From the IMG/VR virus record IMGVR_UViG_3300030106_007274, positions 1 through 37,221 of that record: DNA of 37,221 nucleotides, one strand, 5' to 3'. The first letter of the stretch is position 1; every line of letters begins with the position of its first letter. This document shows positions 8,449-32,981 of the stretch, piece by piece. Both the position numbers and the translations under genes were made by a program. The notes below the pieces were generated by a model, which worked only from the letters and a program-made list of their open reading frames with translations, made no database searches and was not told the origin of the DNA. Source of the stretch: a virus.

Positions 8449-9018
8449 ATGAATTATTGTGATGAGATAGATTTAAGTAACATTACCGCAGAGGAATGGA
8501 ATACCATCTACGAACACGGAGGGTTTAAAGGAGAGGGCTCCGGGCGCGGTAGTTTTGTTGAGAATAATAAAACTCTTATTGAATGGTTTGAGAAATTTAT
8601 AACTAAAAATTTTATAAGTAGTATCGTAGACATTGGTTGTGGAGATTTTCAATGGATGCCATTACTGCTACAAAAGTTTCCAAACGTAGATTATATTGGC
8701 CTCGATTGCGCTAATGCCTTAATTGAATCTCATGCGAAAAAATACCCCGACTACACTTTTGTATGTAAAGATATAACTGCGGAAGATTTTGAGCATATAG
8801 GGCAATATGATCTTGTGATGTGTAAAGATGTCCTACAGCATAATTTTGACAACCCACGACAAATAACAGATCCAATTAATGATATTAATTCAAGATATAA
8901 AATTGTTATTACCCCTGGAGATGTTGGAGGTCTATTAAGACACAAATTCGCTAACTACACATGGGTTACTGATTACCAAAGTGATGAAGAAAAAAGTATA
9001 TACCTTGCTCAGTCCTGA
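8449..9018 (+). CDS. Class I SAM-dependent methyltransferase
   Basis: 189 residues. Motif I, the SAM-binding glycine loop, is DIGCGDFQW at residues 61-69; the acidic ribose-binding residue is in YIGLDCA (Asp 86); motif IV is DLVMCKDVLQH at 121-131. The N-terminus contains a Gly-rich GFKGEGSGRGS that may bind substrate. The length fits a small single-domain methyltransferase of the glycan or small-molecule type. It opens the glycan cluster and its end overlaps the GH130-like gene by 35 bases, so O-methylation of a sugar is the likeliest role. The substrate is unknown. Its leader carries AT-rich TATTAT and TATAAA hexamers about 20 bases before the ATG. Confidence 0.85.
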   Translation: MNYCDEIDLSNITAEEWNTIYEHGGFKGEGSGRGSFVENNKTLIEWFEKFITKNFISSIVDIGCGDFQWMPLLLQKFPNVDYIGLDCANALIESHAKKYPDYTFVCKDITAEDFEHIGQYDLVMCKDVLQHNFDNPRQITDPINDINSRYKIVITPGDVGGLLRHKFANYTWVTDYQSDEEKSIYLAQS

Positions 9019-9853
9019 TCAGGATACAAACTCTTACAACTGGTCGTTTTGGGAGGATAGAGCTTTAGTTCGGGTTGAAAGTAAAAACTATAGGAGCAAA
9101 ATCGTACAATACAAATTTGACCACATAAATAAGACTCTCACTGATCCAGAAACAATATTAGAAGATCCTTATTTTAGTTTAGAAGACCCTAGATTAATAT
9201 CTAAAAATAGTTTTACATATGTAAAATATGATAGAGAAAATGTTGCGTGTTATTTAATGAAAGACGACAAACCTCTTACTAGCGGGCACGCTTGGGAAAA
9301 AAACTGGCAGTTTATAGATCAAGAAAAATATTTTTATAAAATTAAACCATTAGTAATTAAAGGACCAAACTATAAAGAGCGGTTTGAGTACAATATGGGT
9401 TGGGAGTATGGAGATGTTTTTCATTTAAGTAGTAATATGTTTGAAATTAATGACAGACAATTTATTATTTTTCATTCTTATAAAGGTCTCACAGTAAACG
9501 CAAGAAGATATTATCAAGGAGTAGTAGAGCTTGAAAACTTACGACCAAAATTTTATGTGCCAAAGCCTTTGTTTTATCCACCGACAAAAACAAACCCTTA
9601 TAAATTTAAAAAGAATAAAAATAAATGTGTGTTTGTTATGTGTGTACGAATTATAAATGAAGAGCTATATATTACAGCTGGTATTAATGATTGTGAATGC
9701 GCGCTAATTACAATCAATGCGCAAGATTTTATAAGGTGGGTTGATCAAAGAAAAGATTTTATCGAGGAGATATCAACTACAAGTCCAATAAATGGTTTAA
9801 GAGAGTATCAGAGTTTTTATCGTTTAGGTGACGAAAATAATCTCTTACTTTAG
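8984..9853 (+). CDS. Five-bladed-propeller glycan protein, GH130/GH43-like
   Basis: 289 residues. I start it at the ATG at 8984 (MKKKVYTLLS), inside the methyltransferase end; a GTG one codon earlier is in frame. FSLEDPRLIS near residue 65 matches the EDPR motif of GH130 glycoside phosphorylases and relatives, which have a five-bladed beta-propeller. Further strand blocks are NWQFID, KPLVIKG and FHLSSNMFEI. I cannot place a catalytic acid with confidence, so it may be a phosphorylase, a hydrolase or a non-catalytic glycan-binding propeller. Its 3' end overlaps the convergent glycosyltransferase gene by 77 bases. Confidence 0.6.
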   Translation: MKKKVYTLLSPDQDTNSYNWSFWEDRALVRVESKNYRSKIVQYKFDHINKTLTDPETILEDPYFSLEDPRLISKNSFTYVKYDRENVACYLMKDDKPLTSGHAWEKNWQFIDQEKYFYKIKPLVIKGPNYKERFEYNMGWEYGDVFHLSSNMFEINDRQFIIFHSYKGLTVNARRYYQGVVELENLRPKFYVPKPLFYPPTKTNPYKFKKNKNKCVFVMCVRIINEELYITAGINDCECALITINAQDFIRWVDQRKDFIEEISTTSPINGLREYQSFYRLGDENNLLL

Positions 9854-10736
9854 TTGGGTTGTGTTTTTCTAAATGTTTTTTGTAATTGTTAATATTGTCT
9901 TCTAAACACTCTTCGTCAACTAACCAACCAAACTGATGAAGAGTATTTTTTCTTTTGCGTAAAAATAAAACATCGTCATTCATACCACTATAAATACAAT
10001 CATTAAATACTACTAATTCAGGATCGAGCCATTCAAGGAACATAGGTAGTCTTGTTACGTAAACTAAAGCACCTACTGAGAGAGCTTCATATAAGTAATG
10101 ACCCCAACCTTCATATATACTAGGACACAAATGAATAGATGACGTGTTAAAAAGGTCGTTTAATACACTTACATCTAAAAAAGTGTTTATATATGTAATA
10201 TTTTTATCTTTGTCAGAGTTATCGTAGTTCTTATTACTCTGTATAAATGTTAATGGTAGTTTATTTTTATTAAAAATATTAAGAACAGCTTCTGTACCTT
10301 TTTGCCAACTCTTACCACCTAAATGCAAAAATGTATCCTTGCGTTGAATATTAGGATCAAATTTGTCTCTAGAAATAAAACCACTATTAACTACATTATT
10401 ATTGTACGGGGATAATAATTGCTGACTAAATGTAGATTTGCATATTACTTTATCAAACTCTCGAATGGCGTTGATTTTTGTCTCATTAAGCCATTCTTCG
10501 TTCGGGAGAAAAACATTATGCTTAGCTCGTTCAAAAAATGCAGGTTCTATTTCTTGTAGAAATATACCTAAGTCATATTTTGTACTTTCGCTTGTAGTAT
10601 ATACTTGTTCATTTTTCCAGTTAAAAAATAAAACATCTACATCATAATGCTCATGCAATAAGTCTTGAAGTAGATCTACATCTGCTACTAAGCCTACCCC
10701 AGTGTTAGAAGTATAGATACAAGCAGTTTTTTTCAC
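9777..10736 (-). CDS. GT4-type (GT-B) glycosyltransferase
   Basis: 319 residues, starting with GTG at 10736 (GTGAAAAAAACT, read MKKTACIYTS); an ATG four bases earlier is in another frame. The C-terminal Rossmann domain has HLGGKSWQKGTEAVL at 138-152 (sugar-nucleotide phosphate loop) and CPSIYEGWGHYLYEAL at 204-219. The latter is the EGWG....EAL signature of GT4 retaining enzymes, its second Glu contacting the donor ribose. It transfers a sugar from an NDP-sugar to an unknown acceptor. It follows the hypothetical gene at 10741-11142 by four bases, probably in one transcript, and converges on the propeller gene with a long 3' overlap. Confidence 0.9.
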   Translation of the reverse strand: MKKTACIYTSNTGVGLVADVDLLQDLLHEHYDVDVLFFNWKNEQVYTTSESTKYDLGIFLQEIEPAFFERAKHNVFLPNEEWLNETKINAIREFDKVICKSTFSQQLLSPYNNNVVNSGFISRDKFDPNIQRKDTFLHLGGKSWQKGTEAVLNIFNKNKLPLTFIQSNKNYDNSDKDKNITYINTFLDVSVLNDLFNTSSIHLCPSIYEGWGHYLYEALSVGALVYVTRLPMFLEWLDPELVVFNDCIYSGMNDDVLFLRKRKNTLHQFGWLVDEECLEDNINNYKKHLEKHNPTKVRDYFRHLNDKNSDTLLNHLLDL

Positions 10737-10740
10737 TCAT

Positions 10741-11142
10741 CTATCGAAGTAAGTTTTCTTTATAACCAAGCATCTGCCATTGCTCAGTATCCGCTTCCCA
10801 ATACACAACAATGCCAATTGGTAATTCAGCAGTATCGACAAACTCATCGTCAACAATACCCTTTTTCATTTTAGAAGTTTCAACAAGAAAGACCTTTTCC
10901 TTAAAGTACACAGGTCTAGTCTTCCTTTTGTATTTGGTTTCGTATGCGCTCTTGTCTGCTGCTTTAGTCCAGTCCCATGTGAGAGGGTTCCAGAATATAG
11001 TTAAGTTCTCTTTTACCTTTGCTTGGATTGTCTTAGTACCTAAGAAAGTAATCTCTTCAACATCCTTCTGATTAGGTTTATATTGTACACCATTAAAGAA
11101 GATCTCTTTGATCTCAGGTTTAGCTGCTTGTATACTTGGCAT
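10741..11142 (-). CDS. Hypothetical protein
   Basis: 133 residues beginning MPSIQAAKPE. I prefer the ATG at 11142; an earlier start would run into the divergent radical SAM gene at 11163. The protein is basic and charged, with strand-like segments (EITFLGTKTIQAKVK, NLTIFWNPLTWDW, RPVYFKEKVFLVETSK, IGIVVYWEAD). No cysteine pairs, signal peptide or membrane segment are visible. I do not recognise it. It is divergent from the radical SAM gene across 20 bases that hold a perfect 14-bp palindrome, and it is followed by a GT4 gene, so it may belong to the glycan cluster. Confidence 0.6.
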   Translation of the reverse strand: MPSIQAAKPEIKEIFFNGVQYKPNQKDVEEITFLGTKTIQAKVKENLTIFWNPLTWDWTKAADKSAYETKYKRKTRPVYFKEKVFLVETSKMKKGIVDDEFVDTAELPIGIVVYWEADTEQWQMLGYKENLLR

Positions 11143-11155
11143 AACTCTATAATTA
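11128..11155 (+). promoter_or_regulatory. Candidate promoter of the plus-strand glycan operon
   Basis: TTGTAT (11128-11133), 16 bases, TAATTA (11150-11155), seven bases, ATG at 11163. The spacings equal those of the stronger leaderless promoters here, but the -10 box is a poor match. A perfect TATAAT at 11148-11153 overlaps it and would place the start about three bases before the ATG, with no good -35 box. Confidence 0.35.
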
Positions 11156-11161
11156 ATTATA
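11148..11161. repeat. Perfect 14-bp palindrome between divergent genes
   Basis: TATAATTAATTATA reads the same on both strands and fills most of the 20 bases between the ATGs at 11142 (minus) and 11163 (plus). It offers a TATAAT -10 box in each direction, so it may be a bidirectional promoter core or an operator. AT-rich palindromes can be accidental; the position is the main argument. Confidence 0.5.
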
Positions 11162-11162
11162 C

Positions 11163-12221
11163 ATGGATAAAGAACTATCAACTAAGTTTTGTGAACATCC
11201 TTGGACATTTCTAGAAATTCAAGATAAGGGTCTGTATAATTGTTGTCCGCGATGGGTAAATCATAATCGTATAGGAGATTTGACTCCAGATTTAGATTTC
11301 TACGAGGAATGGAATAGTAAAAGAAGTAAAGCATTTCGACGCTCTATACTGGATGGTTCTTTTAGTATGTGTAACGCAGAAGAATGTCCTAAAATACAAA
11401 ACGGTACCCTACCTACTAGGCAAGAAGTACTAGATGGTAAGTACGGAGATCAAATGAAATTTATTTTAGAGTTTGAAATGGATGTCGCCCAGCCTCCTAA
11501 CACAATTAATCTATGCTACGATAAATCTTGCAACTTAAGATGTCCTAGTTGTCGGAAGAACTTAATACAGTACGGAGAAAAAAACGAACCAGACAAATAT
11601 AAACAAACCTTAATGATTAATAAACGGTTGCTGAGAATGATTCACAGTAAGCCTCATAAAGTACATCTTAATATTACAGGGTCAGGAGATCCATTCGGGT
11701 CGCCTTCGTTTTTTGAGTTCATGAAAAAAATAGATCTCAAAAAGAATCCTGAAATTAGTTTATGCCTACAAACTAATGGAGTTTTATTTGACGAGAAACG
11801 TTGGGATCGTTTAAAAAATCTACATAAGATAACAGAACATATTAGTACTATTATAAGTTTAGACGCTGGTATAAAAGATCACTATGATAAAGTAAGAGTA
11901 GGTGGTGATTGGAATAAATTAATGAACAATCTTCACTTTATTGGTCAGTTAGGACTAAAAGAAGTTAGATTAGACATGTGTGTACAAAAAAATAACTATA
12001 AAAGTATTCCCGAGTTCATACAAATAGCGCAAGCACACGATTTTAAATCATACACATCGAGAATTTACAACTGGGGCACGTTTGATGATAAGACTTATAA
12101 CTTTCACAACATTTTTGACTCTAAACACCCCGAGCATGTCGAATTTTTGAAGGTACTTAATATGGATTACCATTGGCACAAGCATGACTGGGGTAATTTA
12201 ACGGATTTTATAACTGATTAA
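11163..12221 (+). CDS. Radical SAM protein with N-terminal SPASM/twitch-like domain
   Basis: 352 residues. The radical SAM cluster motif CX3CX2C is C123-NLR-C127-PS-C130, preceded by another Cys at 118. LNITGSGDPFGSP near residue 165 is the glycine-rich strand that contacts SAM. Unusually, the auxiliary-cluster-like part comes first: FCEHPWTFLEI, GLYNCCPRWV, IGDL, EEWNSKRSKAFR and SMCNAEECP (Cys 10, 27, 28, 70, 75), an order I recall from twitch-domain radical SAM proteins in glycan clusters. It probably oxidises or otherwise modifies a sugar or peptide substrate. The next gene starts in its TAATG stop, so it heads the plus-strand operon to 15955. Confidence 0.85.
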   Translation: MDKELSTKFCEHPWTFLEIQDKGLYNCCPRWVNHNRIGDLTPDLDFYEEWNSKRSKAFRRSILDGSFSMCNAEECPKIQNGTLPTRQEVLDGKYGDQMKFILEFEMDVAQPPNTINLCYDKSCNLRCPSCRKNLIQYGEKNEPDKYKQTLMINKRLLRMIHSKPHKVHLNITGSGDPFGSPSFFEFMKKIDLKKNPEISLCLQTNGVLFDEKRWDRLKNLHKITEHISTIISLDAGIKDHYDKVRVGGDWNKLMNNLHFIGQLGLKEVRLDMCVQKNNYKSIPEFIQIAQAHDFKSYTSRIYNWGTFDDKTYNFHNIFDSKHPEHVEFLKVLNMDYHWHKHDWGNLTDFITD

Positions 12222-13321
12222 TGAAATTAGCAGTATTATTATACGGACAACCCAGATTCTGGGACTTAAGTTACGAAAGTATCCTACAAGAAACAACTTT
12301 TGAAGGATGTACTACGGATTATTACTTTCATTTTTGGGATAAAGTAGGATACGGCCATTCAGACCCGGAAAGGGCAGTAGCTGATCAAGACAAACAAAAA
12401 TTAATTGATATATATCAACCTAAAAAGTATGAATTTACTGATTATCAACCACTAACAGAAAAGTGTAATGAGTTATTTGAATTTGTTAATGGTATAAAAA
12501 GTGGTTTAAATTATTTTTATAAAGAAGACGGTAAAATGATACCTCTTAATCTCGGAAAGAGTATATTTGAAATATGCGAACCGCAACATTTAGAGTATTA
12601 TCTTGGTCAATTTACATCATTAGAAAGAGTAGCAAATTTAGTAGAAGAAGAATATGATTATATTTTTAGGGTTAGAACTGATCTAATGTTCGTTACACCT
12701 GATATGTACGAAGATGAAAGGTTTTATAGATCAGATAAAAGACTATTTTACCATCGTTTAGAAAAGCGAGAAAAAGGTATATTTTGTAAGTATGGTGACT
12801 TACAAATATGGGAAGGAGCGCAAGACAAATCAGGTAATCATACAGATCATCAACCTAAAAAAAGAACTACATACGAAGAACTGTCAGTATTAAATGAAAC
12901 AATGTATGCAAAAAAACGACACAAAGGTGATTGTGATATTTATAAGCCTAAAACTCAGTATTTGCATATGAAAGACTGGTATATACTAGGTAGTGGTACT
13001 GAAATGCTTCGTAGTATGAAAAGTTATTTTGATACAATTTATGATATGGTGGAAAAGTCGCGCTATTTGTTAAAAACTTACGGTATAGATATTAACTGGG
13101 CCGCTGGAGAAATTGTATGTGGGGAAGTATTAGGAAGAGAAGGTATAAATGCAGGAGAATTAGGGTATGAATATATAAACAAAATGGTCATACCTCCACG
13201 TATAATGAAAATTGCGAATAAAGATACAAAGCAATGTATTTTAGATAGGCCACACATTAGAGTGTTAGCGGATTCTGATTTATCTTTAAAAAATCAATAT
13301 AAAAAAATAATAGAAAAATGA
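12221..13321 (+). CDS. Paralogous glycosyltransferase-like protein, subfamily A (copy A1)
   Basis: 366 residues. One of six related proteins in this window. Family marks are an N-terminal strand ending in YGQPRF (8-13), FHFWDKVGY (36-44) and YDYIFRVRTD at 145-154, probably the nucleotide-sugar and metal site of a GT-A-like fold, since RTD resembles a degenerate DxD in context. The C-terminal half has a WYILGSG segment seen as a 'tRsga' block in other copies. It has inserts (KREKGIFCKYGDLQIWEG and a Lys-rich loop) absent from the other copies. I know no firm family name. A glycan transferase role is inferred from the motif and from the company of true glycosyltransferases. Confidence 0.75.
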   Translation: MKLAVLLYGQPRFWDLSYESILQETTFEGCTTDYYFHFWDKVGYGHSDPERAVADQDKQKLIDIYQPKKYEFTDYQPLTEKCNELFEFVNGIKSGLNYFYKEDGKMIPLNLGKSIFEICEPQHLEYYLGQFTSLERVANLVEEEYDYIFRVRTDLMFVTPDMYEDERFYRSDKRLFYHRLEKREKGIFCKYGDLQIWEGAQDKSGNHTDHQPKKRTTYEELSVLNETMYAKKRHKGDCDIYKPKTQYLHMKDWYILGSGTEMLRSMKSYFDTIYDMVEKSRYLLKTYGIDINWAAGEIVCGEVLGREGINAGELGYEYINKMVIPPRIMKIANKDTKQCILDRPHIRVLADSDLSLKNQYKKIIEK

Positions 13322-14115
13322 TTATATCTCTCACTACGATTCCTGAGCGAATACAACACATTAAACCGGTAATAGAATCTTTAATCTCTCAAACTCAACC
13401 CCCAGAAAAGATTTTATTATGGGTACCAAACGATGTAGAATACGAAATACCAACATTCTTAAACACAGATATAGTAGAAATAAAACGATGTAAAGACATT
13501 GGTCCTGCGACAAAATTTATTTACACAATAAATGAACTAAAACCAAACCAAGAATTTATTGTGGTAGATGACGACACAATATATAGTGAATTTTTAATTG
13601 AAAGTTTAGCTAAATTCCCGGAAATTGATGCCCCAAAGTGTGTAAAAGGTATACACTATCAAACAGGAAAGCCGGTAAGAAGAAGATTAATGACAGAAGT
13701 TGATGGTTCTCTAAAAACAAAATTTTTAGCGAATAAATTTTCTATAGGACTCACTGATATAATGCTAGGAGCTGACGGCTATATCTTAAAACCAAAATAC
13801 TTTGACAAGAATATTAATAATATACCTAAAGAGTTTAGAAGATATGACGATGTATGGCTAGGAGCATATTTCGATGCTTATAATATTAAGAAATATGTAG
13901 TGCCTTGTAGGTGTTTATCATATGCGCAAGAAAAAGCTAATATAGCTAATACTTTAAAAACTGAAAAAGTAGAGTGGGTTATAAGTTTATTAAACAAAAT
14001 AGCTAAACCCCACTTGCGATATATAGATGATATACACCCTATAGGTGGTGGTACTTCAATTGAGCACTCATATTACCTGAAAGTAAAAAAATATATTTTA
14101 GAGAGAATGAAATGA
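13318..14115 (+). CDS. GT-A glycosyltransferase with DDD motif
   Basis: 265 residues. The N-terminus MIISLTTIPERI, followed by IESLISQTQPPEKILLWVP, is typical of a group of GT-A enzymes ('SLTS.P.R...TI.SL..Q...P..I.LW'). The metal-binding DxD equivalent is VVDDDTIYS with Asp 84-86, and YDDVWLGAYF around 176-185 matches the acceptor-site D-D/E-D block of GT2-like enzymes. There is no membrane segment, so it acts in the cytoplasm. ATGA overlaps join it to both neighbours, placing it inside the plus-strand operon between two members of the six-copy family. Donor and acceptor are unknown. Confidence 0.85.
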   Translation: MIISLTTIPERIQHIKPVIESLISQTQPPEKILLWVPNDVEYEIPTFLNTDIVEIKRCKDIGPATKFIYTINELKPNQEFIVVDDDTIYSEFLIESLAKFPEIDAPKCVKGIHYQTGKPVRRRLMTEVDGSLKTKFLANKFSIGLTDIMLGADGYILKPKYFDKNINNIPKEFRRYDDVWLGAYFDAYNIKKYVVPCRCLSYAQEKANIANTLKTEKVEWVISLLNKIAKPHLRYIDDIHPIGGGTSIEHSYYLKVKKYILERMK

Positions 14116-14972
14116 ATATTGCAATTTGTATATGTGGTGAGCCTCGAATGAAAAAACATGGGGCTGAAAGTATAAAACAGTTTCGCAAAGACATAGAACA
14201 GTACGATGTGAAATTAGATGTGTTCTATCATATATGGGACCATGTTACCAAAAGACAGCGTAATCACAAATCCCAAGATCCGTATGTAGAATATGCAACA
14301 AAGAATGAACTAGAGGATATGTTCGAACCAACAGTAGGTTACATGGCGGATAAAAGTGAAATGGATAAAGAAATTGAATATATATGGGATCATGTTTGTA
14401 GTTTGAACGAACCAAATCCTAGATATGATACAATAGATATATTACGTAACCAAATTTATTATTCAAACACGCCCGGTTATTCTCAGCTTCATAGTCTGTG
14501 TAAAAATCAATTAATGAGAATAGATTATGAAAACAAAAATAACAAAAAATATGATTTAATTATAAAAACTAGGACTGATGTAGAGTTTAGATGTACTCCT
14601 GATTTTGAGCACATTAAAAAAATAGCAGAAAATCCTAATTTTCGCGAACAAATATTTTTACCCAAACTAGAAGTTTGGAGTGTAAAACATGAAACATTAA
14701 TAATACCAGAGTTTTCTTTATTTTACGGTAACTCAACTACTTTACACAAAAATATATGGGAAAATTACCCAGAAAAAATAACTCCTGATTTATATTATTA
14801 TCGTGGTGGTCCTCATTTGAGTGTAAGGAATGATCATACTCTGTTTATGAATCTTTTATTAAAGAACGCTAAAGTAAAAATACACGGAAATTTGCATAAT
14901 GCTCTACACTACAAGTTATATCAAATGCCAACATATTATAAAGAGGTAAAAAAGAAATATAGTCATTATTAA
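14112..14972 (+). CDS. Paralogous glycosyltransferase-like protein, subfamily B (copy B1)
   Basis: 286 residues. The N-terminus MNIAICICGEPRM corresponds to GQPRF of subfamily A; DVFYHIWDHVTKRQR at 36-50 is a B-specific extension of the HFWD block, and YDLIIKTRTD at 147-156 is the shared RTD motif. Its closest relative in the window is the minus-strand gene at 19391-20362, with which it shares TKRQR, a .PTVG. segment near 73-76 and a QL...CK helix. Subfamily B ends with a G(N/S)S.T..+ block and a His-rich ending. A transferase role is inferred. The ATG sits in the ATGA stop of the preceding gene and follows a GAGAG, one of the few Shine-Dalgarno-like sites here. Confidence 0.75.
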   Translation: MNIAICICGEPRMKKHGAESIKQFRKDIEQYDVKLDVFYHIWDHVTKRQRNHKSQDPYVEYATKNELEDMFEPTVGYMADKSEMDKEIEYIWDHVCSLNEPNPRYDTIDILRNQIYYSNTPGYSQLHSLCKNQLMRIDYENKNNKKYDLIIKTRTDVEFRCTPDFEHIKKIAENPNFREQIFLPKLEVWSVKHETLIIPEFSLFYGNSTTLHKNIWENYPEKITPDLYYYRGGPHLSVRNDHTLFMNLLLKNAKVKIHGNLHNALHYKLYQMPTYYKEVKKKYSHY

Positions 14973-14974
14973 AA

Positions 14975-15955
14975 ATGAATATTGCAGTACTTGTATACGC
15001 GCAACCTAGGTTTATAAACCTTAGTTATAAACGATTAAAAGAAGAGTATGATATACCCGGCGCGAATGTAGATTTTTTTATTCATTTCTGGGAGGATGTT
15101 GGTTTTTCTCCTGCGTGTGACAAAACAGCGAATTATATAACATATAATAATTTACAAGAATACATAGAATATATAAATCCTAAAAAATATAAAATTGAAG
15201 ACTATAAAGAATTAGATGAATTAGTGTTTTTGCTAAAAAACACAAAAAGCTATATTTTAAATGATAAAGTAAAATCAAAAAACGTTAGATTAAAAGATAG
15301 ATATGAATACGGTCAATGGTTCAGCCATAAAAAAGCCTACCTTTTAATGGAAGAATATGAAAAAGAAAATAACATGCAATATGATTTGGTTATAAAAACA
15401 AAAACTGACTACATCTATAAAAGAACCGATAAAGAAAAACAATATATAATACCAAAAAAATACTTAAAAGAAAAGGTCTCATTAGTATCAAACATACAAA
15501 CGAGGTATTTTTTTGCAGAACAAACCCACCACGACGAAACTATAAGTAAGCGACTACAAGAATTTATACCAAACAAAACAATAGAGACGAGACTTATAAA
15601 TTGTAACTTTTATAGATTAAAAGTCGACGATATAAATATGGTAGCTACGAGATCAGCTGCGTACAACCTATACAATAATTGGGTAGAGACCTACCTACAA
15701 TGTCTTACCTGGGAAAAAAATAATAAAATTAAAGAACACCAGCAGATATATTTTAGACAAGACATACTATTTGGGTATACAGCAATACTAAACAACATTA
15801 CTCTATTAAAAAAACCTAGGAACTACATAAGACTGTATACGAAAAACTCGTGTAAGAAATCCTGGGTTACAAATAGAGCAGATATCTCAATAGATGTCTC
15901 TGATTTTAAAGATTATAACGATCTCGACAAATCATTAACCGCTGTACTTGTATAA
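14975..15955 (+). CDS. Paralogous glycosyltransferase-like protein, subfamily A (copy A2)
   Basis: 326 residues. Motifs: YAQPRF at 8-13 (Gly of GQPRF replaced by Ala), IHFWEDVGF around 36-44, an amphipathic YGQWFSHKKAYLLMEEYEKE helix and YDLVIKTKTD at 136-145, where RTD has become KTD. The C-terminal half keeps an ATRSAAYNLYNNWVETYL block shared with copy A3 (ANRAGAEIMFENWFENYF). The Arg-to-Lys change at the putative active site is conservative. It is the last gene of the plus-strand operon and its 3' end overlaps the convergent radical SAM gene by 43 bases. Function is inferred as glycosyl transfer. Confidence 0.75.
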   Translation: MNIAVLVYAQPRFINLSYKRLKEEYDIPGANVDFFIHFWEDVGFSPACDKTANYITYNNLQEYIEYINPKKYKIEDYKELDELVFLLKNTKSYILNDKVKSKNVRLKDRYEYGQWFSHKKAYLLMEEYEKENNMQYDLVIKTKTDYIYKRTDKEKQYIIPKKYLKEKVSLVSNIQTRYFFAEQTHHDETISKRLQEFIPNKTIETRLINCNFYRLKVDDINMVATRSAAYNLYNNWVETYLQCLTWEKNNKIKEHQQIYFRQDILFGYTAILNNITLLKKPRNYIRLYTKNSCKKSWVTNRADISIDVSDFKDYNDLDKSLTAVLV

Positions 15956-16860
15956 TTAGCTCTTGAATCTTTGTCTATTCTATTATTAAAAATAACTATA
16001 TCGCTTTTATCTTTAAGTTGGTCGCAATTATTGCAAATAAAATTTGATTCCGGACATGTACCTTTCTCGTGATGGTCACGAAGCTGTTGAAATACATCTC
16101 CGTTAAAAATCTCTAATAAAGTTTGTTCTTTAAAGTTACCTAAAACTAATTCATTGTTAAAGTCGAAGCAACACATAATGATATCTCCGTTGATCTGAAT
16201 CTGTATAGGTCCGTTAAATGGACGACCACATGTTTTTAAGGTGTTAGGCTGGGTTTTATTTCTATATTTTTTACCGTAAACCCAGTTATGCGGGTACCAT
16301 ACTTCGAGAGTACATCTATTATCAAAGTCTGCAATCATTTTGTCTACATCATCTTTATTTTCTTCGACAATATCTGCAGTAATTATAAATTCAGTGTCTG
16401 TAGGTTTGTTGTCTATAGCGTAGTTTACATTATTAATTACTGAGTTATAATCAAATTTATTAGATTTGTAATTCATAACACGACCATAGCTATCAGGATT
16501 GGTGGTATGAAGACTAACCCTTATATCTTTAACTCCTATTTCGTATATTTTATCGATTCTATCAGGAGTTAACATAGAACCATTAGTAAGTAAATGAATA
16601 TCTATATTTTTTGTACTTGCATACTTTATTTTATCTACAATACCATTATCAATAAATATTTCTCCAAAACCAGAAAAGGTAGTTTCAGTAATTTGTTCGC
16701 CAATTTCATCTAGACATTTATCGAGATAAAATTTATATGTATCTAAAGACATAACTTCTCTTTTTCTAGTAAAATCAGAGGTCGGGTGCGGACAAAAAAC
16801 ACAACCAGCATTACAAGATGTAGATGTCTCAACGCGAACTTCTGATGTTTTAGGTATCAT
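15913..16860 (-). CDS. Radical SAM/SPASM protein
   Basis: 315 residues. The CX3CX2C motif is C16-NAG-C20-VF-C23 (then PHP), FSGFGEIF at 62-69 is the GGEP-like strand, and the SPASM domain contains C211-GRPFNGPIQI, INGDIIMCC (230, 231), VLGNFKEQTLLEIFNG, then C269, C276 and C279, which can bind auxiliary Fe-S clusters. SPASM enzymes mature peptides or oxidise alcohols and amino groups on sugars; with a sulfotransferase directly upstream a sugar or lipid-glycan substrate is likely. The gap to the sulfotransferase is five bases, so they probably share a transcript, though a weak promoter also lies before it. The domain order is the conventional one, unlike the radical SAM gene at 11163. Confidence 0.92.
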   Translation of the reverse strand: MIPKTSEVRVETSTSCNAGCVFCPHPTSDFTRKREVMSLDTYKFYLDKCLDEIGEQITETTFSGFGEIFIDNGIVDKIKYASTKNIDIHLLTNGSMLTPDRIDKIYEIGVKDIRVSLHTTNPDSYGRVMNYKSNKFDYNSVINNVNYAIDNKPTDTEFIITADIVEENKDDVDKMIADFDNRCTLEVWYPHNWVYGKKYRNKTQPNTLKTCGRPFNGPIQIQINGDIIMCCFDFNNELVLGNFKEQTLLEIFNGDVFQQLRDHHEKGTCPESNFICNNCDQLKDKSDIVIFNNRIDKDSRANYTSTAVNDLSRSL

Positions 16861-16865
16861 ATATA

Positions 16866-17543
16866 TTATTTACTATCATACTGTAAAACTTCAAAAAGAT
16901 CAGAGGGAAATAAACTGTTAAATTTTTTATAAAGTTCATCAGTAAAATATTCTTGATAAGTATCGGAGAAAAGGGGGTTAGTCTTGTTGAATTTTTTTCT
17001 CCCATGGATTTTAATACAATTAGATAATATGTTTTTATCTAATATCGGTACATGATCGGTAATTTTACTAACTATGTTAGTTCTACCTTCTTCTGTCATG
17101 AAATCTTCTAGTTTAATTATTAAAATATTTTTATTTATATCAACTGTTTTGTCGGCTTTAGAATAAACTTCATATTGTGTTTTATTTTTTATGAAATTAT
17201 ACATATTAGTAATAGTAAGACCGCCTATCTTTTTCATCTCAAATAATATTTTTTCTTCGACAGACTCAAAACTATTAATCTCGTCTTGATAGCTTATACC
17301 GTCATTATTTGGATTTATACACCATTTTTCTGTAGTAATCTGATGATATCTCATACCAGACATTATAATTTCATATGGATTTCTAATACACACAATAACT
17401 TTGGCATTTTCTATAATAGAGTTAGATAATACGTCTAACTTACCTTGAAATTCAAAATTTAAGCCAGTTTTTTCTTGGTATATTTTAAATAATTTTTTTA
17501 TTGCATTTGTACCGGTTTTATGCCAAGCGCCAATATAAATCAT
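16866..17543 (-). CDS. Sulfotransferase (PAPS-dependent)
   Basis: 225 residues. The 5'-phosphosulfate loop is GAWHKTGTNAIKKLF at residues 5-19, close to the KTGT/KSGT motif of the family, and the 3'-phosphate site is VCIRNPYEIIMSG at 51-63 with the expected Arg 54 and Ser 62. It is somewhat short for the family but both PAPS sites are intact. It should move sulfate from PAPS to a hydroxyl or amine, most simply on the glycan built by the neighbouring transferases. It overlaps the upstream gene by four bases and precedes the SPASM gene. The acceptor is unknown and PAPS must come from the host. Confidence 0.88.
   Translation of the reverse strand: MIYIGAWHKTGTNAIKKLFKIYQEKTGLNFEFQGKLDVLSNSIIENAKVIVCIRNPYEIIMSGMRYHQITTEKWCINPNNDGISYQDEINSFESVEEKILFEMKKIGGLTITNMYNFIKNKTQYEVYSKADKTVDINKNILIIKLEDFMTEEGRTNIVSKITDHVPILDKNILSNCIKIHGRKKFNKTNPLFSDTYQEYFTDELYKKFNSLFPSDLFEVLQYDSK
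16867..16894 (-). promoter_or_regulatory. Weak candidate promoter before the SPASM gene
   Basis: On the minus strand TTGAAG (16894-16889), 16 bases, TAAATA (16872-16867), six bases, ATG at 16860. The spacing equals that of the strong leaderless promoters, but the -10 match is poor and the site lies inside the sulfotransferase end. Confidence 0.25.
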
Positions 17544-18316
17544 AATAATATATAATAACTTTCAACAAAGTCTCTAATTAAAGGTATGTCTTTATTGTTA
17601 TTACCGAAAATTGAAACTTCTTTTATATAAGAATCAACATAATTTAAGAAACAATCTTTATTTGTATAATCTGTGTTTGAAAATTTAAGTTGATGTTTCC
17701 ATAGCGACATACTATGTAAATGATAAAATTGTATGGAGATAGGAAAATTAAATATTTTAGAAGATTTAACCTCCAATAGTTTATCATAATACGTATGGTC
17801 TGCGTTATACAAAGAATTAGTAATAATATCGACTTCATTTTGTTTATTAAAAATTAAACTATGATTACTTTGAGTTTTTTTTGTAGGTTTATCAGTACCA
17901 AATTCACGGTTTTTATATCCTTTTTTTCTACGACCACCAATAGGATCAATAAAACAATAGTTAAACATATTAATACCTGGTGTTAGTTCGTGAGTCTCAG
18001 GTAGCTTTAAAAATATATCATCGTCATCTTGTTGAAAAAATAAAATATTTTTACTATTATTCTCTAAAAAATAATCTTTACATTGTTGGTTACTTTCTAA
18101 TATAATATCAAAACAATTTGTTTGCTGTATGTGTTGTATGACTATATCTCGTATAATTTTACGGAATGACAGATAATCAATATTTAAATATTTGTTCCAT
18201 AAATCAATAATTTTAGTGTAATAAGAATATTGTTTTTTGTTTTTAACCCAATTATCATAAACATGTAACGTTTTCCAATAATCTTGGTTACAGCGTATGT
18301 GACATATCTTTTGCAT
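17540..18316 (-). CDS. Putative glycosyltransferase with a QQDDDDIF acidic motif
   Basis: 258 residues. FFQQDDDDIFLKLP near 93-106 looks like a DxD metal site in GT-A or rhamnosyltransferase-like proteins ('R.D.DD.l'). The rest is rich in Tyr, Asn and Lys, with YHLHSMSLWKHQ near the C-terminus, resembling a catalytic-site block of putative rhamnosyl transferases. I cannot name the family. It starts at the TAATG stop of the preceding paralogue gene and its own end overlaps the sulfotransferase ATG, so it is translated in the same operon. A transferase role is inferred. Confidence 0.65.
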   Translation of the reverse strand: MQKICHIRCNQDYWKTLHVYDNWVKNKKQYSYYTKIIDLWNKYLNIDYLSFRKIIRDIVIQHIQQTNCFDIILESNQQCKDYFLENNSKNILFFQQDDDDIFLKLPETHELTPGINMFNYCFIDPIGGRRKKGYKNREFGTDKPTKKTQSNHSLIFNKQNEVDIITNSLYNADHTYYDKLLEVKSSKIFNFPISIQFYHLHSMSLWKHQLKFSNTDYTNKDCFLNYVDSYIKEVSIFGNNNKDIPLIRDFVESYYILL

Positions 18317-19386
18317 TATCTAAATTTGTGATTTAGAATGTCTTTTCTAATTTGTTCTTCAGATTCAGCTTTAATTTTTCCACCAGTTTTGATGTCTCGT
18401 TTAACTATTTCAGGATGAATTAATCGAGCGTCCCGTCTAGGCGATATTCGCTGTAGCGCTAAATTGTAATTTAAAGCAAACTGGCCTTGTAAGCAGTGAT
18501 CAGACATACTTATAAACCAATTGTTTGTGTTGTTGTTTAAAATATCTTTAGAATGAGTAATAAAGTAATTTTCAAACCAATTTTCAAACATTATTTCGGC
18601 CCCCGCTCTATTAGCAATTAAAGTCCAATCGTTAAATGCGAGACGCTTATTATAATCTTCTGTATGAGGTATCCAACCAACCTCCCTATCTGGTTGAAAT
18701 CTGGTAGGCAGACCTCTATTCAATAAGAGTTTATTTTTATAAAAATAATTTATAGGTATATTAAAACCATCTTTAGCGGGTTCTGCTCTTCTTTCTATTA
18801 AATCTACATATCTTAAAGCTGTACCTTTAACTAACGGGATATCAAAACACATATTTGTATACATATCTAATTTGTGTTTATAATATTCATCTTCTGATTC
18901 ATACATCTCTTTAACCTGATAAACTATGTCAGTACGTACCTTTATAATAATATCGTATTTGAAATTATTTTCTTTTTCGTATGATACAATACGTTTAAAG
19001 CCTTGCTTCATACTTACGTGTTGTCCGAATTTGTATCTTAAATTTTCTATTTTACATACTTTCGAGATAGGTAAATTCCTCTGGTGAAGATTTATATATT
19101 TTAATATGTCATGACAATAACTATCTAATACCTCATAATCTTGTATTATAAGATTGCGGGCAGATGGCTTTTGCGGGAGAATACTACCAGGCAAACCTTT
19201 TAATAAATTATATATTTCATTTTTATCATATTCTATCTCTTGTCCGTTAGGGGTATATCCAATTTTATTCCAAAAGTGCGCGTAATAATGTACGTCGTGT
19301 CCCGGTAAATCGAACTCTTCTTTAATTAAGTTGACGGTATGTTTTAAAAACCGTGGCTGACCAAACATTAATATCGCAATTTTCAT
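18316..19386 (-). CDS. Paralogous glycosyltransferase-like protein, subfamily A (copy A3)
   Basis: 356 residues. Family motifs are FGQPRF at 8-13, YYAHFWNKIGYTP at 34-46, GQHVSMKQGFKRIVSYEKEN at 121-140 and YDIIIKVRTD at 144-153, with ANRAGAEIMFENWFENYF in the C-terminal half. It most resembles copy A2 on the plus strand (both have the EE.D.PG segment at 23-29). A GGGAG-type Shine-Dalgarno sequence (GGGAG, seven bases, ATG) is visible, unlike at most genes here. It follows copy B2 by four bases. Glycosyl transfer is inferred; no experimental relative is known to me. Confidence 0.75.
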   Translation of the reverse strand: MKIAILMFGQPRFLKHTVNLIKEEFDLPGHDVHYYAHFWNKIGYTPNGQEIEYDKNEIYNLLKGLPGSILPQKPSARNLIIQDYEVLDSYCHDILKYINLHQRNLPISKVCKIENLRYKFGQHVSMKQGFKRIVSYEKENNFKYDIIIKVRTDIVYQVKEMYESEDEYYKHKLDMYTNMCFDIPLVKGTALRYVDLIERRAEPAKDGFNIPINYFYKNKLLLNRGLPTRFQPDREVGWIPHTEDYNKRLAFNDWTLIANRAGAEIMFENWFENYFITHSKDILNNNTNNWFISMSDHCLQGQFALNYNLALQRISPRRDARLIHPEIVKRDIKTGGKIKAESEEQIRKDILNHKFR

Positions 19387-19390
19387 AAAT

Positions 19391-20362
19391 TTACTCCCAA
19401 AGTTTTTTAGAATTTAAATCATAGTCCATTTGTTGTAATTTATATCCGAACGGAGTACAAGGTGCACCTAGTATAACGTGACCTCCTTTAGTATCTAAAT
19501 CAGTTGTCTCATCCTTAAACAAGCGCGGCATACAATTATGAGAGCTGTTGTGAATAAAACAACTTGCTTTACCGTTAGGGTTATTTACTTGTATAAGTAA
19601 CTCAGCTAAACGTCTACTATAATTATTAAACATACTACGCTTTATAGTATGAGAAGAACCTACAAAAAAACTATAATCAACGTGTGGTGTATGTCTATCT
19701 GGATTGCAATGACGTGGGGTACGTGTACTTAAGGACGGGAACTTAATGTATCTCTTGTAATGTTCCTTTTTTAAAACTGAATTAATTCTTTTTATAGATA
19801 TTGGTTTAATAATAACATCAGATCTGCTTTTTATAATTATATCATATGTTACCTTTTTACTTTCTGCATAATCTAACATTATAAGAAGAGATTTACACAC
19901 AGTTACTAATTGAGAGAATGGTGGGCTGTTTGTTGTTTTTATTTTATGGTAAAACGCTTCTTTTAAACTGAAATTTGTTTTTGCTAACTCATCAGGAGTA
20001 CATCTAAGAAGAGATTTAATACACTGATTGGGAGTAAAATTATATTTTTTAATATGTTCTTGTATATGGTTCCACATATCGTCAATATGTGGGTCAAGGG
20101 TACTTTTAGGAGCACACACCCCAACAGTAGGTGTATAATTATCTAGTAGTATTTTGCTGTCTATTTTTTTATAAATCGGATCTTCGATTAAATGTCTCTG
20201 TCTTTTAGTAACGTCGTCCCAAAAATGATAAAATACATCTATATTGCAATAATTTTCAAGGTTTTGTTTAAAGATTTTTATAGAATCAGCTCCTAGTTCC
20301 CAGTTTCTAGGTTCACCACTTAAACAAATAGCTATATTAATTTTTTTATCTGAGTCGTTCAT
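19391..20362 (-). CDS. Paralogous glycosyltransferase-like protein, subfamily B (copy B2)
   Basis: 323 residues, with an eight-residue extension (MNDSDKKI) before the family start. Motifs: SGEPRNW at 15-21, DVFYHFWDDVTKRQR at 42-56, YTPTVGV at 76-82, FSQLVTVCKSLLIMLDYAE at 149-167 and YDIIIKSRSD at 173-182, in which the RTD threonine is Ser. It pairs with copy B1 on the plus strand. A 30-residue insert (115-145) with FTPNQCIKSLLRC separates it from B1. It overlaps copy A4 by 17 bases. Role inferred as for the other copies. Confidence 0.75.
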   Translation of the reverse strand: MNDSDKKINIAICLSGEPRNWELGADSIKIFKQNLENYCNIDVFYHFWDDVTKRQRHLIEDPIYKKIDSKILLDNYTPTVGVCAPKSTLDPHIDDMWNHIQEHIKKYNFTPNQCIKSLLRCTPDELAKTNFSLKEAFYHKIKTTNSPPFSQLVTVCKSLLIMLDYAESKKVTYDIIIKSRSDVIIKPISIKRINSVLKKEHYKRYIKFPSLSTRTPRHCNPDRHTPHVDYSFFVGSSHTIKRSMFNNYSRRLAELLIQVNNPNGKASCFIHNSSHNCMPRLFKDETTDLDTKGGHVILGAPCTPFGYKLQQMDYDLNSKKLWE

Positions 20363-21251
20363 TAAGTGTGGATAAGCATTTAGAGTTATCTTGATTAAAA
20401 AAACAATAATTGGACAATACTGGGGTAGAATACTTACTCATTACACCGGTAGTAAATTTGCTTTTAGTAGAATTATTTACTAATCTTATGAGATTATACG
20501 ACAGTAGTTCAATGTTTGAATTATTTTCAAAACCGTGAATTAAAATTGACATAGCGCATCCTCGATGCCATGAGTTAAACTGTAATGTTGTTTCGTCTCT
20601 ATCAAAACTAAAAACAGAGTCTTTAGTAAAGTTAACAAAATTAATATCTTTATTATTGCAATAAGCGTCGCGAAATTTTATGTAATAATTATATACATTA
20701 TTTGCGAAAACGTTTATTCCAGACCGGTTATAACTCCTTAAATGAGTTGGTATACATCCATGTTTACCTGTAAGTTTAGAACCCTTTTCAAAGTTAGGCA
20801 CTTTAACAGTAGGTATATTACTAGAGAAGGATAAAAGTTCGTCGAGATTTTGTTTATTAGGTAAATAGTCAGTCCTTACTCGTAATACAACATCATAAGT
20901 AATGTTGTTATGTTTTTCGTATGATGACATTAACTGTATAGCTTGTATAGTACTATAATGTTCGCCATGTCTATACCTATCCTTCAGTTTAAATTTACCA
21001 TCTATTTGTTGTATAAAAGAATCTAAATTATTATAATTAGTAATTGAAAAATCTTTAAAAGGACACGTAGAGATAATTTTTTCTAACTTATTAACATTAA
21101 GTTCTTCTTCAACTTGATGAGGACCGTAACTTACATAAGACCAGAAATGCCCAAAAAAGTCAACATTTCTACCATCTAGCCACTCGAGATAAAAAGAAGC
21201 AGTAATATCGAAAAACCTAGGCTGACCTACAAACAATACAGCGATTTTCAT
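20346..21251 (-). CDS. Paralogous glycosyltransferase-like protein, subfamily A (copy A4)
   Basis: 301 residues, the shortest subfamily A copy. Motifs: VGQPRFF at 8-14, DFFGHFWSYVSYGP at 31-44, RHGEHYSTIQAIQLMSSYEK at 94-113 and YDVVLRVRTD at 119-128. The C-terminal third (NSWHRGCAMSILIHGFE) corresponds loosely to the last helices of the other copies. It follows the GT-A gene at 21253 by one base and overlaps copy B2 by 17 bases, giving the transcription order A4, B2, A3. A transferase role is inferred from the shared RTD motif and the cluster. Confidence 0.75.
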   Translation of the reverse strand: MKIAVLFVGQPRFFDITASFYLEWLDGRNVDFFGHFWSYVSYGPHQVEEELNVNKLEKIISTCPFKDFSITNYNNLDSFIQQIDGKFKLKDRYRHGEHYSTIQAIQLMSSYEKHNNITYDVVLRVRTDYLPNKQNLDELLSFSSNIPTVKVPNFEKGSKLTGKHGCIPTHLRSYNRSGINVFANNVYNYYIKFRDAYCNNKDINFVNFTKDSVFSFDRDETTLQFNSWHRGCAMSILIHGFENNSNIELLSYNLIRLVNNSTKSKFTTGVMSKYSTPVLSNYCFFNQDNSKCLSTLNERLR

Positions 21252-21252
21252 A

Positions 21253-22035
21253 TTAAAAATTTTTATATACTAAATTATAATTAAAATTAAGGGGGTTATA
21301 TGGTTTGTATGTACCGTTTTTTAATTGTTTATATAATATATCATATAAAGGTTTATTACTATTTTTATCTCTGGTTAAATTTGGAGTTTCTCCTGCGGTT
21401 TGGTGTTTTCGTTTAATTAATCCATGTCGATTGTAAAATGGTTCCCTATTTAAATAAACCCGCGGCGGTATAACAATTGTTTTTGATATACTTTGTTCTT
21501 TTACGCCTCCGTGCTCCATACGATCTCTCATAAACACACCATGATATCCCCAATTACCTGAAAATCTTTCATCATGTAAATATTTTAATCTGTTTGTTTT
21601 TGTAGTCAAACCATGCCAACCACATAATTTATAATAAATTTTACCTAACTTGAAGTCGACTTTGTGTGCTCTTTCAGTATGTAATCTATAATGATAATTA
21701 TCGTTAGGTTTTATTGATAGTAATTCTTCTATAAGATCATTATATATTACCATATCCATATCTAAGCATGTAACTGAGTTTGTTTCAGCATTTATACATC
21801 CTAAATTTACTGCTCCTGCTATATTATATCCGTTAAAATTAGTTCTATATATTTTTAATTTTAAATTATTAAGTTCAGGCAAATATTCTGTTAGTGGAAA
21901 ATCACTATTATCATCTACTATAGTAAATGCGATGTTTTTTAAAAACTCTTTATCAATATAATTATCAATATACGAAAGCATTTCTTTAGTATATTCCTTT
22001 TGATTAAAATATGTATATATGATGTCGAGCTTCAT
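21253..22035 (-). CDS. GT-A glycosyltransferase (GT2/GT27-like)
   Basis: 260 residues. DDNS at 41-44 and CLDMDMVIYND at 90-100 are the two acidic sites of a GT-A fold: the first contacts the nucleotide, the second (DMD) is the metal-binding DxD. NGYNIAGAVNLGCINAETN at 69-87 matches the 'N.G.a.a.N.G...a.g' helix of GT2 enzymes. A C-terminal WGYHGVFMRDRM could correspond to the W-G acceptor block of galactosyltransferase-like (GT7/GT27) enzymes. Its ATG overlaps the stop of the cytidylyltransferase in an ATGA. Donor unknown; there is no membrane segment. Confidence 0.85.
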   Translation of the reverse strand: MKLDIIYTYFNQKEYTKEMLSYIDNYIDKEFLKNIAFTIVDDNSDFPLTEYLPELNNLKLKIYRTNFNGYNIAGAVNLGCINAETNSVTCLDMDMVIYNDLIEELLSIKPNDNYHYRLHTERAHKVDFKLGKIYYKLCGWHGLTTKTNRLKYLHDERFSGNWGYHGVFMRDRMEHGGVKEQSISKTIVIPPRVYLNREPFYNRHGLIKRKHQTAGETPNLTRDKNSNKPLYDILYKQLKNGTYKPYNPLNFNYNLVYKNF

Positions 22036-22676
22036 TTATATAACTCTGCGGTTTTAAAATCCTCGAGAGTATCTAAATCGATACACTCTTTTCTGTCCCT
22101 TATAATATAGAAGTATGGAGTAGCACCTACCCTACATCTATACCGTTCGTAGGCCCGTTTAGATATACCGTATAGCCCTGTTGTCTCTTTAATAACCGGT
22201 GTAGCATCTTGTGATCTAGGTAAGATATTCGGTTGATAATTTACCGGTTGATCTTTATGCCAAAACCACCCATATTCTTCCGTAGCTGTAAATATAGAAT
22301 CATGCTTTGAACTATGAGTTAACTTATCTACACAATCTCTAATAGTCTCAGGTTTCAAAAACGGTGCAGTTGCATATAATTGAAAGTAAAAATCGTAATG
22401 CCCTATAAAATCTATATCATGATGAAAGACATCATTACCATTCGCAGTATCTAATGTAAGTTCAGGTTTACGTTTAATGCATATAATCTGATTTTCAGTA
22501 CAATAACTATTAATCTCAGGACTATCAGTATCTACATATATATCATCAAAGCATTCTGCTTGAATGCAATGATCTATAATATATTGATATAGAGGCTTAT
22601 CTCCTAAAAGCCGAAAGTTTTTATTTTTAACTCTCGTTGAATTGCTCTTTATAGGTATTGTCGCGGCTACTTTCAT
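22032..22676 (-). CDS. CMP-sugar cytidylyltransferase (NeuA/KdsB-like)
   Basis: 214 residues starting at MKVAATIPIK (ATG at 22676); an upstream in-frame start would add 12 residues that overlap the zinc-ribbon gene further and look non-native. IPIKSNSTRVKNKNFR at 8-23 is the nucleotide-binding motif of acylneuraminate/KDO cytidylyltransferases (IPARg.S.rvp.KN), and YVDTDSPEI and FYFQLYATAPFL match the later conserved blocks (the Q.LxAT/PLR region). It activates a keto-acid or related sugar as CMP-sugar. No synthase for a nonulosonic acid or KDO is in the window, so the sugar acid may be host-made or encoded elsewhere. It is coupled to the GT-A gene by ATGA. Confidence 0.85.
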   Translation of the reverse strand: MKVAATIPIKSNSTRVKNKNFRLLGDKPLYQYIIDHCIQAECFDDIYVDTDSPEINSYCTENQIICIKRKPELTLDTANGNDVFHHDIDFIGHYDFYFQLYATAPFLKPETIRDCVDKLTHSSKHDSIFTATEEYGWFWHKDQPVNYQPNILPRSQDATPVIKETTGLYGISKRAYERYRCRVGATPYFYIIRDRKECIDLDTLEDFKTAELYK

Positions 22677-22800
22677 ATGTATCGTTATAACACTTAGGGC
22701 ATAACTGACCACATCCTTCTACATAATAATATCTCATATCAATATGAGTAAATTCATCATACTCAGTATCTTTATTACAAATGACACACTTATCTTTCAT
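22627..22800 (-). CDS. Small zinc-ribbon-like protein
   Basis: 57 residues starting MKDKCVICNK. The ATG at 22800 lies in the end of the preceding reductase gene (AATGAAAGATAA junction), the coupling seen across this operon. Four-cysteine sites are C-x2-C near the N-terminus (CVIC) and GCGQLCPKCYND, a treble-clef or zinc-ribbon pattern. Its 3' end overlaps the cytidylyltransferase start by 50 bases. Small zinc-ribbon proteins of this kind are common in phages without known function. It is real on the strength of the paired cysteines and both overlaps. Confidence 0.6.
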   Translation of the reverse strand: MKDKCVICNKDTEYDEFTHIDMRYYYVEGCGQLCPKCYNDTYESSRDNTYKEQFNES

Positions 22801-23698
22801 TACATAAACTATTATACACTGCGCGTATACCCTCTTCAAAAGACGTAAAATTAAAATCTGGAAAATGTTTTAACAATTTTTCATTACTTACGTCTTTCCT
22901 ATATTGACCATCTGGTTTCGAAATATCAAATTTTAACTCTAAATTTATATCTAGAGCTCTAAGGGTTGTTTCAGCTAATTCTTTAATTGATAAGCAATTG
23001 CTATCTGCAATATTAAAGTTTTCATATAGGTCTGCTTTAATACACCTATCAATAACTCTTGCTACATCTCTTGAATGTATAAATTGTCTCAATGGAGTAC
23101 CTGTACCAAATAGATTTAACTCCCTCGTACCTGTGTCGACTGCTGTTTTTATTTTTTGTAACAAAGCAGTAACAAAATGCGCTTTACCGTCGTTATGAAA
23201 GTTATCATACTCACTGTACAAATTACATGGAGTAATATAAGAATACTGCAAATTGTGCTTTTTTCTATATGTATCTATTTGAACCCCTAGTAGCCTCTTT
23301 GAATAACCATAGCCAAAGTTTGTTGGAGTAGGAGGTCCTAAATGAAGCATATCTTCTGTCATTGGATACTGCTCGTCAGATAGTTTGTCTGGGTAAATAC
23401 ACGTACTCAGAATACCTATAAATTTTTTAACACCTGTTTTTGCTGCTTCTCTAGTAACAAACGTATTCATAAGTACGTTATTTTCTAAATAACGATCTGG
23501 GTAATTAATATTATCTTGTATACCCCCTACTGTAGCAGCTAAATGAATAACAATATTAGGTTTAATATATTTAAACATTTTTTCTACATCAGTTTGTCGC
23601 GTTAAATCAAAGTCTGAAGAAGATATATACTTTGCCTCAGGAAAAAATTCCTTTAGATGTTTACCTATTGTACTTGTTCCACCTGTAACTAATATCAT
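22790..23698 (-). CDS. fcl: GDP-L-fucose synthase-like NAD(P)-dependent epimerase/reductase
   Basis: 302 residues from the ATG at 23698, which overlaps the GMD stop as ATGA; a TTG two codons upstream is in frame but less likely. The Rossmann motif is TGGTSTIG at 5-12. LSTCIYPD, the following PMTE, PTNFGYGYSKR (Tyr and Lys of YxxxK) and FIHSRDVAR match GDP-4-keto-6-deoxymannose epimerase-reductase (Fcl/WcaG). Together with GMD directly upstream this would make GDP-L-fucose, or a related 6-deoxyhexose, from GDP-mannose. I cannot see from sequence alone whether the product is fucose or a variant such as GDP-colitose. Confidence 0.9.
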   Translation of the reverse strand: MILVTGGTSTIGKHLKEFFPEAKYISSSDFDLTRQTDVEKMFKYIKPNIVIHLAATVGGIQDNINYPDRYLENNVLMNTFVTREAAKTGVKKFIGILSTCIYPDKLSDEQYPMTEDMLHLGPPTPTNFGYGYSKRLLGVQIDTYRKKHNLQYSYITPCNLYSEYDNFHNDGKAHFVTALLQKIKTAVDTGTRELNLFGTGTPLRQFIHSRDVARVIDRCIKADLYENFNIADSNCLSIKELAETTLRALDINLELKFDISKPDGQYRKDVSNEKLLKHFPDFNFTSFEEGIRAVYNSLCNER

Positions 23699-24651: not shown

Positions 24652-24671
24652 TTATTTTATAATAGTATATA

Positions 24672-27776: not shown

Positions 27777-27783
27777 TTTAAAT

Positions 27784-27811
27784 ATTATATAGTAGGAATA
27801 TTAAAGTGCAA
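27784..27811 (-). promoter_or_regulatory. Sigma70-like promoter of the RfbH-type gene, leaderless layout
   Basis: On the minus strand TTGCAC (27811-27806), 16 bases, TATAAT (27789-27784), seven bases, ATG at 27776. The -35 box lies in the last codons of the epimerase gene. The spacings match those of the helicase and DUF366 promoters. It would give the sugar-nucleotide block 21253-27776 its own expression within the long minus-strand operon. Confidence 0.6.
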
Positions 27812-28574: not shown

Positions 28575-29047
28575 TTACTCAAGTTAATGTAGCAGGGGGA
28601 TTTTTTTTCTAAAATTGTATTAACATCTTGATACATCGCCTGTTCGTCTACAGGTTTATATAAATTAATATTACGAAGATTAGTGAGCACTTCAATATCT
28701 TCTTCCGCCCAATGAGAATAACCTAAATAACCATAATCTTTATCGCGACCTCCTCCTGCTAAAACTACAGGCCATTTTTCATGATGAATATAGTTTCTAA
28801 TAAATTCAAAACCTCTATATAATAAAAAAGAAGTAATAGAATATGCGATAGGTATTTTACCTTCCATAGATAACCCGACTGCGGCTCCTATTAGCAATTG
28901 TTCAGAAGCTCCTACATCAATAAATCTATCTGGGTAGTCAATTTTAATTCTATCCCACAAGCCATATCCTAAATCTGCAGTTAGAACAACAATGTTACTC
29001 TGGGTCGCCATTTTGCTGTGAATTAAATTAGCGAATTGCTTCCTCAT
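28571..29047 (-). CDS. Transketolase, pyrimidine-binding half (C-terminal domain absent)
   Basis: 158 residues. The segment FIDVGASEQLLIGAAVGLS at 42-60 is the PYR-domain core with Glu 49, the residue that activates the thiamine diphosphate ring (GIAEQ in other enzymes). LTADLG at 22-27 and the AEEDIEVL segment also fit. Usual split transketolases have a second subunit near 300 residues with PYR and C-terminal domains; here only the PYR domain is present and the last third is missing. It overlaps the N-terminal half gene by 20 bases. The two halves must act together, because the cofactor sits between them. Confidence 0.85.
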   Translation of the reverse strand: MRKQFANLIHSKMATQSNIVVLTADLGYGLWDRIKIDYPDRFIDVGASEQLLIGAAVGLSMEGKIPIAYSITSFLLYRGFEFIRNYIHHEKWPVVLAGGGRDKDYGYLGYSHWAEEDIEVLTNLRNINLYKPVDEQAMYQDVNTILEKKSPCYINLSK

Positions 29048-32974: not shown

Positions 32975-32981
32975 CATATAT

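Follow-up and report, generated by a model that had tools for sequence, protein, structure and literature searches.

Gene content of the locus

The window analysed here is a complete IMG/VR virus record of 37,221 bases, a 37-kb genome fragment. It encodes a T4-type gp20 portal, gp15, a helicase and phoH. The portal is only ~31% identical to cyanophage portals, and the phage was therefore assigned to a separate T4-like lineage. All six genes under study lie within one region rich in sugar genes:

8449..32977, unstranded: glycan island between pyrophosphatase/DUF366 and phoH, holding all six copies
12221..13321, plus strand: A1, PHROG 13607, subfamily A; 26 related loci with 48-93% identity
14112..14972, plus strand: B1, PHROG 13607, subfamily B; orthologues 73-78% identical; AF2 model with predicted GT-A fold
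14975..15955, plus strand: A2, PHROG 13607, subfamily A (AQPR, HFWE); orthologues 42-51% identical
18316..19386, minus strand: A3, PHROG 13607, subfamily A; orthologues 62-70% identical; AF2 model with predicted GT-A fold
19391..20362, minus strand: B2, PHROG 13607, subfamily B; best relatives ~40% identical
20346..21251, minus strand: A4, PHROG 13607, most divergent A copy

The ORFs are all intact and start with ATG. Pairwise identity among the six copies was computed by all-against-all BLASTP and multiple alignment and amounts to 18-35%. BLASTP E-values range from 3e-11 to 5e-27 within subfamily A (strongest pair A2-A3), reach 3e-38 for B1 against B2, and lie between ~4e-3 (weakest) and 2e-9 for A-B pairs. 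Since all six also match PHROG 13607, their mutual resemblance is far above chance. A seventh copy was not found in the window by iterated HMM search. The first-pass annotation, made from the sequence alone, had described six homologous genes in two subfamilies, A with four and B with two members. BLASTP and the PHROG 13607 matches agree on the homology, and in a tree of 105 members the subfamilies form separate clades (A, 41 rows; B, 20 rows; SH-aLRT 98 each).

The same annotation had listed three strict motifs. Their presence in all copies was borne out but their strictness was not, and they are better written as [GA][QE]PR, H[FI]Wx and, at residues ~105-185, YDxxx[KR]x[KR][TS]D. Literal HFWD occurs only in A1 (12221) and B2 (19391), the other four copies reading HIWD, HFWE, HFWN or HFWS, and A2 (14975) has AQPR in place of G[QE]PR. 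A TKRQR extension, proposed as a mark of subfamily B, is present in both B1 and B2 but does not characterise the B clade as a whole.

The family sits among glycan-biosynthesis genes. The island contains a GDP-mannose dehydratase, epimerases, a DegT aminotransferase, a cytidylyltransferase and GT1-, GT2- and GT4-type genes. It also encodes a sulfotransferase-like protein, two radical SAM proteins and the halves of a transketolase. Among the genes of the window, none was recognised as a lipid-carrier glycosyltransferase, flippase, polymerase or ligase. The radical SAM proteins are encoded at 11163-12221 and 15913-16860; the first of these genes overlaps A1 by one base and adjoins A1 in most relatives. 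Between A1 and B1, positions 13318-14115 encode a 265-aa protein (start MIISLTTIPERIQ) with no Pfam match, which had 41-44% identical counterparts only in G009 and G003 among the relatives checked and is possibly another unnamed transferase. The sulfotransferase-like gene and the adjacent hypothetical gene (16866-18316) have a G+C content of 24-26%, lowest or near-lowest of those measured, most others having ~30-38%. Transketolase is present as two ORFs inside the island (28571-29648; pyrimidine-binding and N-terminal halves) and may help to make an unusual or branched sugar. Adjoining the island, inorganic pyrophosphatase and DUF366 are encoded at 7235-8413; DUF366 is 92-100% identical in relatives, a conservation exceeding that of the portal.

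Sequence profiles and predicted fold

In profile searches, all six copies matched PHROG 13607 with E-values of 3e-10 to 2e-14, mostly over their N-terminal 130-230 residues. The profile has 239 positions and the window copies are longer (286-366 aa). The first-pass annotation had offered no established name for the family; a catalogue name thus exists, although the entry carries no functional label. None of the six proteins (0/6) scored above a Pfam cut-off. For DUF7796 (PF25072) the best of them reached 22.8 bits against a cut-off of 27 bits, and B2 has a weak match below it. Two phage relatives (L039 and L049) passed the cut-off with 34.7 and 27.3 bits, and 50 of 99 aligned members matched weakly (E <= 0.05). 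The shared part comprises the N-terminal and YD..RxD motif regions, and these profile matches indicate that the PHROG 13607 family is distantly related to DUF7796. Nothing on DUF7796 was found in the literature.

No member exceeded the cut-off of any named glycosyltransferase family. A PDB sequence search with the family profile gave chance matches only, with no solved glycosyltransferase showing sequence similarity, and hhalign comparisons with the GT2-type neighbours 29627 and 21253 and with the 13318 protein gave no match. No cellular homologue was confirmed in genome-contig scans, for which the patterns were narrow, so that absence is not implied.

Structure prediction, which had been proposed as a check on the transferase-like nature of the family, yielded a GT-A fold for both proteins modelled with AF2, A3 (pLDDT 92.3, pTM 0.92) and B1 (pLDDT 91.3, pTM 0.91). 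Nearly all top PDB matches of the two models are GT-A glycosyltransferases. The best structural match of A3 is COLGALT1/GLT25D1 of GT25 (Z 12.3, 222 residues, rmsd 3.9), followed by BoGT6a (Z 11.4, 192 residues, rmsd 3.7) and Mnn9 (Z 11.0); Foldseek returned LARGE1 and BoGT6a with E ~2e-5. The B1 model matched hyaluronan synthases, WrtF and C2GnT-L at Z ~11-12. Foldseek TM-scores are modest (0.3-0.5), and therefore the fold class is clear but the specific glycosyltransferase family is not. Structural Z values tie across families including GT6, GT25 and GT14; given these ties and only 8% identity between COLGALT1 and A3, no membership in GT25 follows. Among viral predicted structures, the best matches were uncharacterised proteins of giant viruses and cyanophages, together with a DUF7796 protein and one protein labelled as a glycosyltransferase. 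The six-gene family is thus predicted to adopt a GT-A fold, by the models for A3 and B1 and by homology for the other four.

GT-A enzymes usually carry a metal-binding DxD motif, which is common but not universal. Here the canonical DxD is absent, and 98-99 of 99 members have [RK]xD at the expected place:

18928..18936, minus strand: R151-T152-D153 codons of A3, expected GT-A DxD position
14571..14579, plus strand: R154-T155-D156 codons of B1, same [RK]xD motif

In the alignment of 99 members, position 151 is R (90%) or K (10%) and position 153 is D (99%); residue positions A4, G9, R12, Y144 and D145 are 94-98% conserved. The predicted order of elements is beta1-alpha-beta2-...-long helix-beta4, with [RK]-x-D directly after beta4. 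The DxD register was placed by this secondary-structure order, without superposition, because hhalign to the GT2-type neighbours gave nothing.

Replacement of the first Asp of DxD by a basic residue throughout the family might mean that some copies have no catalytic activity and serve other glycosyltransferases as partners or scaffolds, as COSMC does for T-synthase (PMC7185993). We consider this rather unlikely: [RK]xD is near-invariant among the 99 members, which fits an active site and not decay, and metal-independent GT-A families that have lost DxD exist in GT14 (PMC7185993) and bacterial GT6 (PMC3961637). BoGT6a (bacterial GT6) and C2GnT-L (GT14) resemble the present family in combining a GT-A fold with loss of the canonical DxD. 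BoGT6a differs in carrying NxN against [RK]xD here, with no detectable sequence similarity. We hypothesize that the [RK]xD family may be metal-independent.

Origin of the copies and cassette exchange

Several copies adjoin and identity between copies is low, as would be expected from recent tandem duplication in this phage followed by fast diversification; rapid diversification was the view taken in the first-pass annotation. Such an origin is very improbable. A1, B1, A2 and A3 each group with orthologues of other phages, to which they are 42-93% identical, against 18-35% within the genome; for these four of the six copies tandem duplication is thereby rejected. AU tests reject an in-genome clade both for the four A copies (p ~1e-55) and for the two B copies (p ~1e-62). 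Orthologue dN/dS (NG86) was computed as ~0.08-0.33 for A1, B1, A2 and A3 and as 0.4-0.5 for B2, ratios which are rough as dS is high in many pairs; with dN well below dS, the orthologues are under purifying selection. The same gene sets also recur: most relatives carry several family copies (~3-9 matches per related record, a single match in one record), and several share a set of A3 and a B-type neighbour with A1 nearby. No close relative of A4 was found among viral contigs, and its placement in the tree is unsure owing to a long branch. Taken together, the comparisons indicate that the paralogous lineages behind the six copies are old and did not multiply recently in this phage.

Two related proteins are longer and of fusion type. 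A B-type protein of 475 aa (L029 3741-5168) has a clear C-terminal methyltransferase domain, and the C-terminal region of a 577-aa family member (L056 374-2107) weakly matches HAD phosphatases.

Gene-by-gene comparison identified G009 and G010 as the closest relatives of this phage, with a core 98-100% identical. The following segments were distinguished:

10741..13321, unstranded: left flank of the swap with hyp146, radical SAM and A1; 100/99/93% identical to G009
14112..19386, unstranded: exchanged cassette with B1, A2, radical SAM, sulfotransferase-like, hypothetical and A3; closest to G001/G002
22032..24651, minus strand: right side of the swap with cytidylyltransferase, NAD-dependent epimerase (possibly GDP-fucose-synthase type) and GDP-mannose dehydratase

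Identities to G009/G010 are 100% for hyp146, 99% for radical SAM, 93/85% for A1, 92-93% for the CMP-sugar gene (cytidylyltransferase), 90% for GDP-mannose dehydratase and 98% for PhoH. In the block from ~13.3 to 21.2 kb, distant versions stand instead in these closest relatives: B1, A2 and A3 are only 26-46% identical to the G009/G010 versions, and the second radical SAM gene and the sulfotransferase-like gene are without counterpart there. The cassette genes are 50-78% identical in G001/G002, the core of which is only ~67-80% identical (PhoH 68%, portal 79-82%). B2 and A4 (19391-21251) resemble none of G001, G002, G009 and G010. The cassette is nearest to G001/G002 and the core to G009/G010; the island is therefore a mosaic. 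As judged from these identities, one swap junction lies just after A1 (~13.3 kb) and others at ~19.4-21.2 kb, and the diversity stems from block-wise replacement of old lineages, i.e. cassette exchange. Phages with near-identical cores can thus hold entirely different sets of predicted GT-A enzymes.

Proposed function and known systems

Our preferred reading, to which we assign a probability of about 0.8, is that the six genes encode GT-A glycosyltransferases of one uncharacterised family, old lineages of which are swapped as cassettes, and that they build a phage-specified glycan. Each predicted enzyme, if catalytic, would probably form one linkage and add one sugar. Activated sugars may be supplied in part by the island neighbours (GDP-mannose dehydratase, epimerases, DegT aminotransferase and cytidylyltransferase), and the [RK]xD site, where the fourth core strand ends, would bind the nucleotide-sugar. 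Related T4-like phages hold different sets and trade multi-gene cassettes between conserved flanks, by which a swap could change the glycan in one step. Its destination may be the host surface or the virion, both being possible.

Alternatively, the enzymes might attach sugars to modified bases in the DNA of the phage, like the T4 glucosyltransferases. T4 itself glucosylates its DNA, and virus-encoded glycosyltransferases that hypermodify DNA were reported by Pyle et al. 2024, as cited in PMC12619734. No thymidylate-synthase/hydroxymethylase-type gene (PF00303) was found in the window, which is a fragment, or in five related records, the search control being positive in 9 genomes; moreover, the neighbours are glycan-building, sulfotransferase-like and radical SAM genes. 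DNA glycosylation is accordingly judged improbable.

More tentatively than the glycosyltransferase reading itself, the family may be a GT-A family of its own, with DxD replaced by [RK]xD throughout to give a charge-compensated (metal-independent or single-Asp) nucleotide-sugar site, its members being exchanged as glycan 'serotype' cassettes like bacterial O-antigen clusters.

A functional hypothesis, that of a GT-A glycosyltransferase, is hereby provided for a phage family catalogued without function that cyanophages and, on structural evidence, giant viruses share. That phages with near-identical cores differ in their enzyme sets offers a testable link from cassette type to host or virion glycan and further to superinfection exclusion or receptor use. 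Synechococcus phage Bellamy has two family matches. One of them, gp208 (L110 12001-12753), matches the family profile, is annotated hypothetical and lies next to epimerase, nucleotidyltransferase and glycosyltransferase genes. At ~250 aa it is shorter than the window copies; being from a cultured phage, it is a practical experimental handle. Homologues in S-SKS1, S-PRM1 and S-SM2 were found by tblastn and are mostly annotated hypothetical. For the giant-virus proteins, the likeness to the family is by structure.

Among the closest known systems is the pelagimyophage host-recognition cluster, likewise a hypervariable, glycosyltransferase-rich region of marine T4-like phages (PMC7029224); literature searches on exchange of glycosyltransferase cassettes in marine phages led mainly to this study. 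That cluster adjoins tail-fibre genes in the interval from VrlC to gp14, and GT8 is its most frequent glycosyltransferase (PMC7029224); the island described here differs in position, extending from pyrophosphatase/DUF366 to phoH. The general phenomenon of a glycosyltransferase-rich hypervariable region is thus known already, at another genomic position (PMC7029224); the present analysis adds the assignment of an unnamed family to GT-A, the [RK]xD signature of that family and a mosaic resolved gene by gene.
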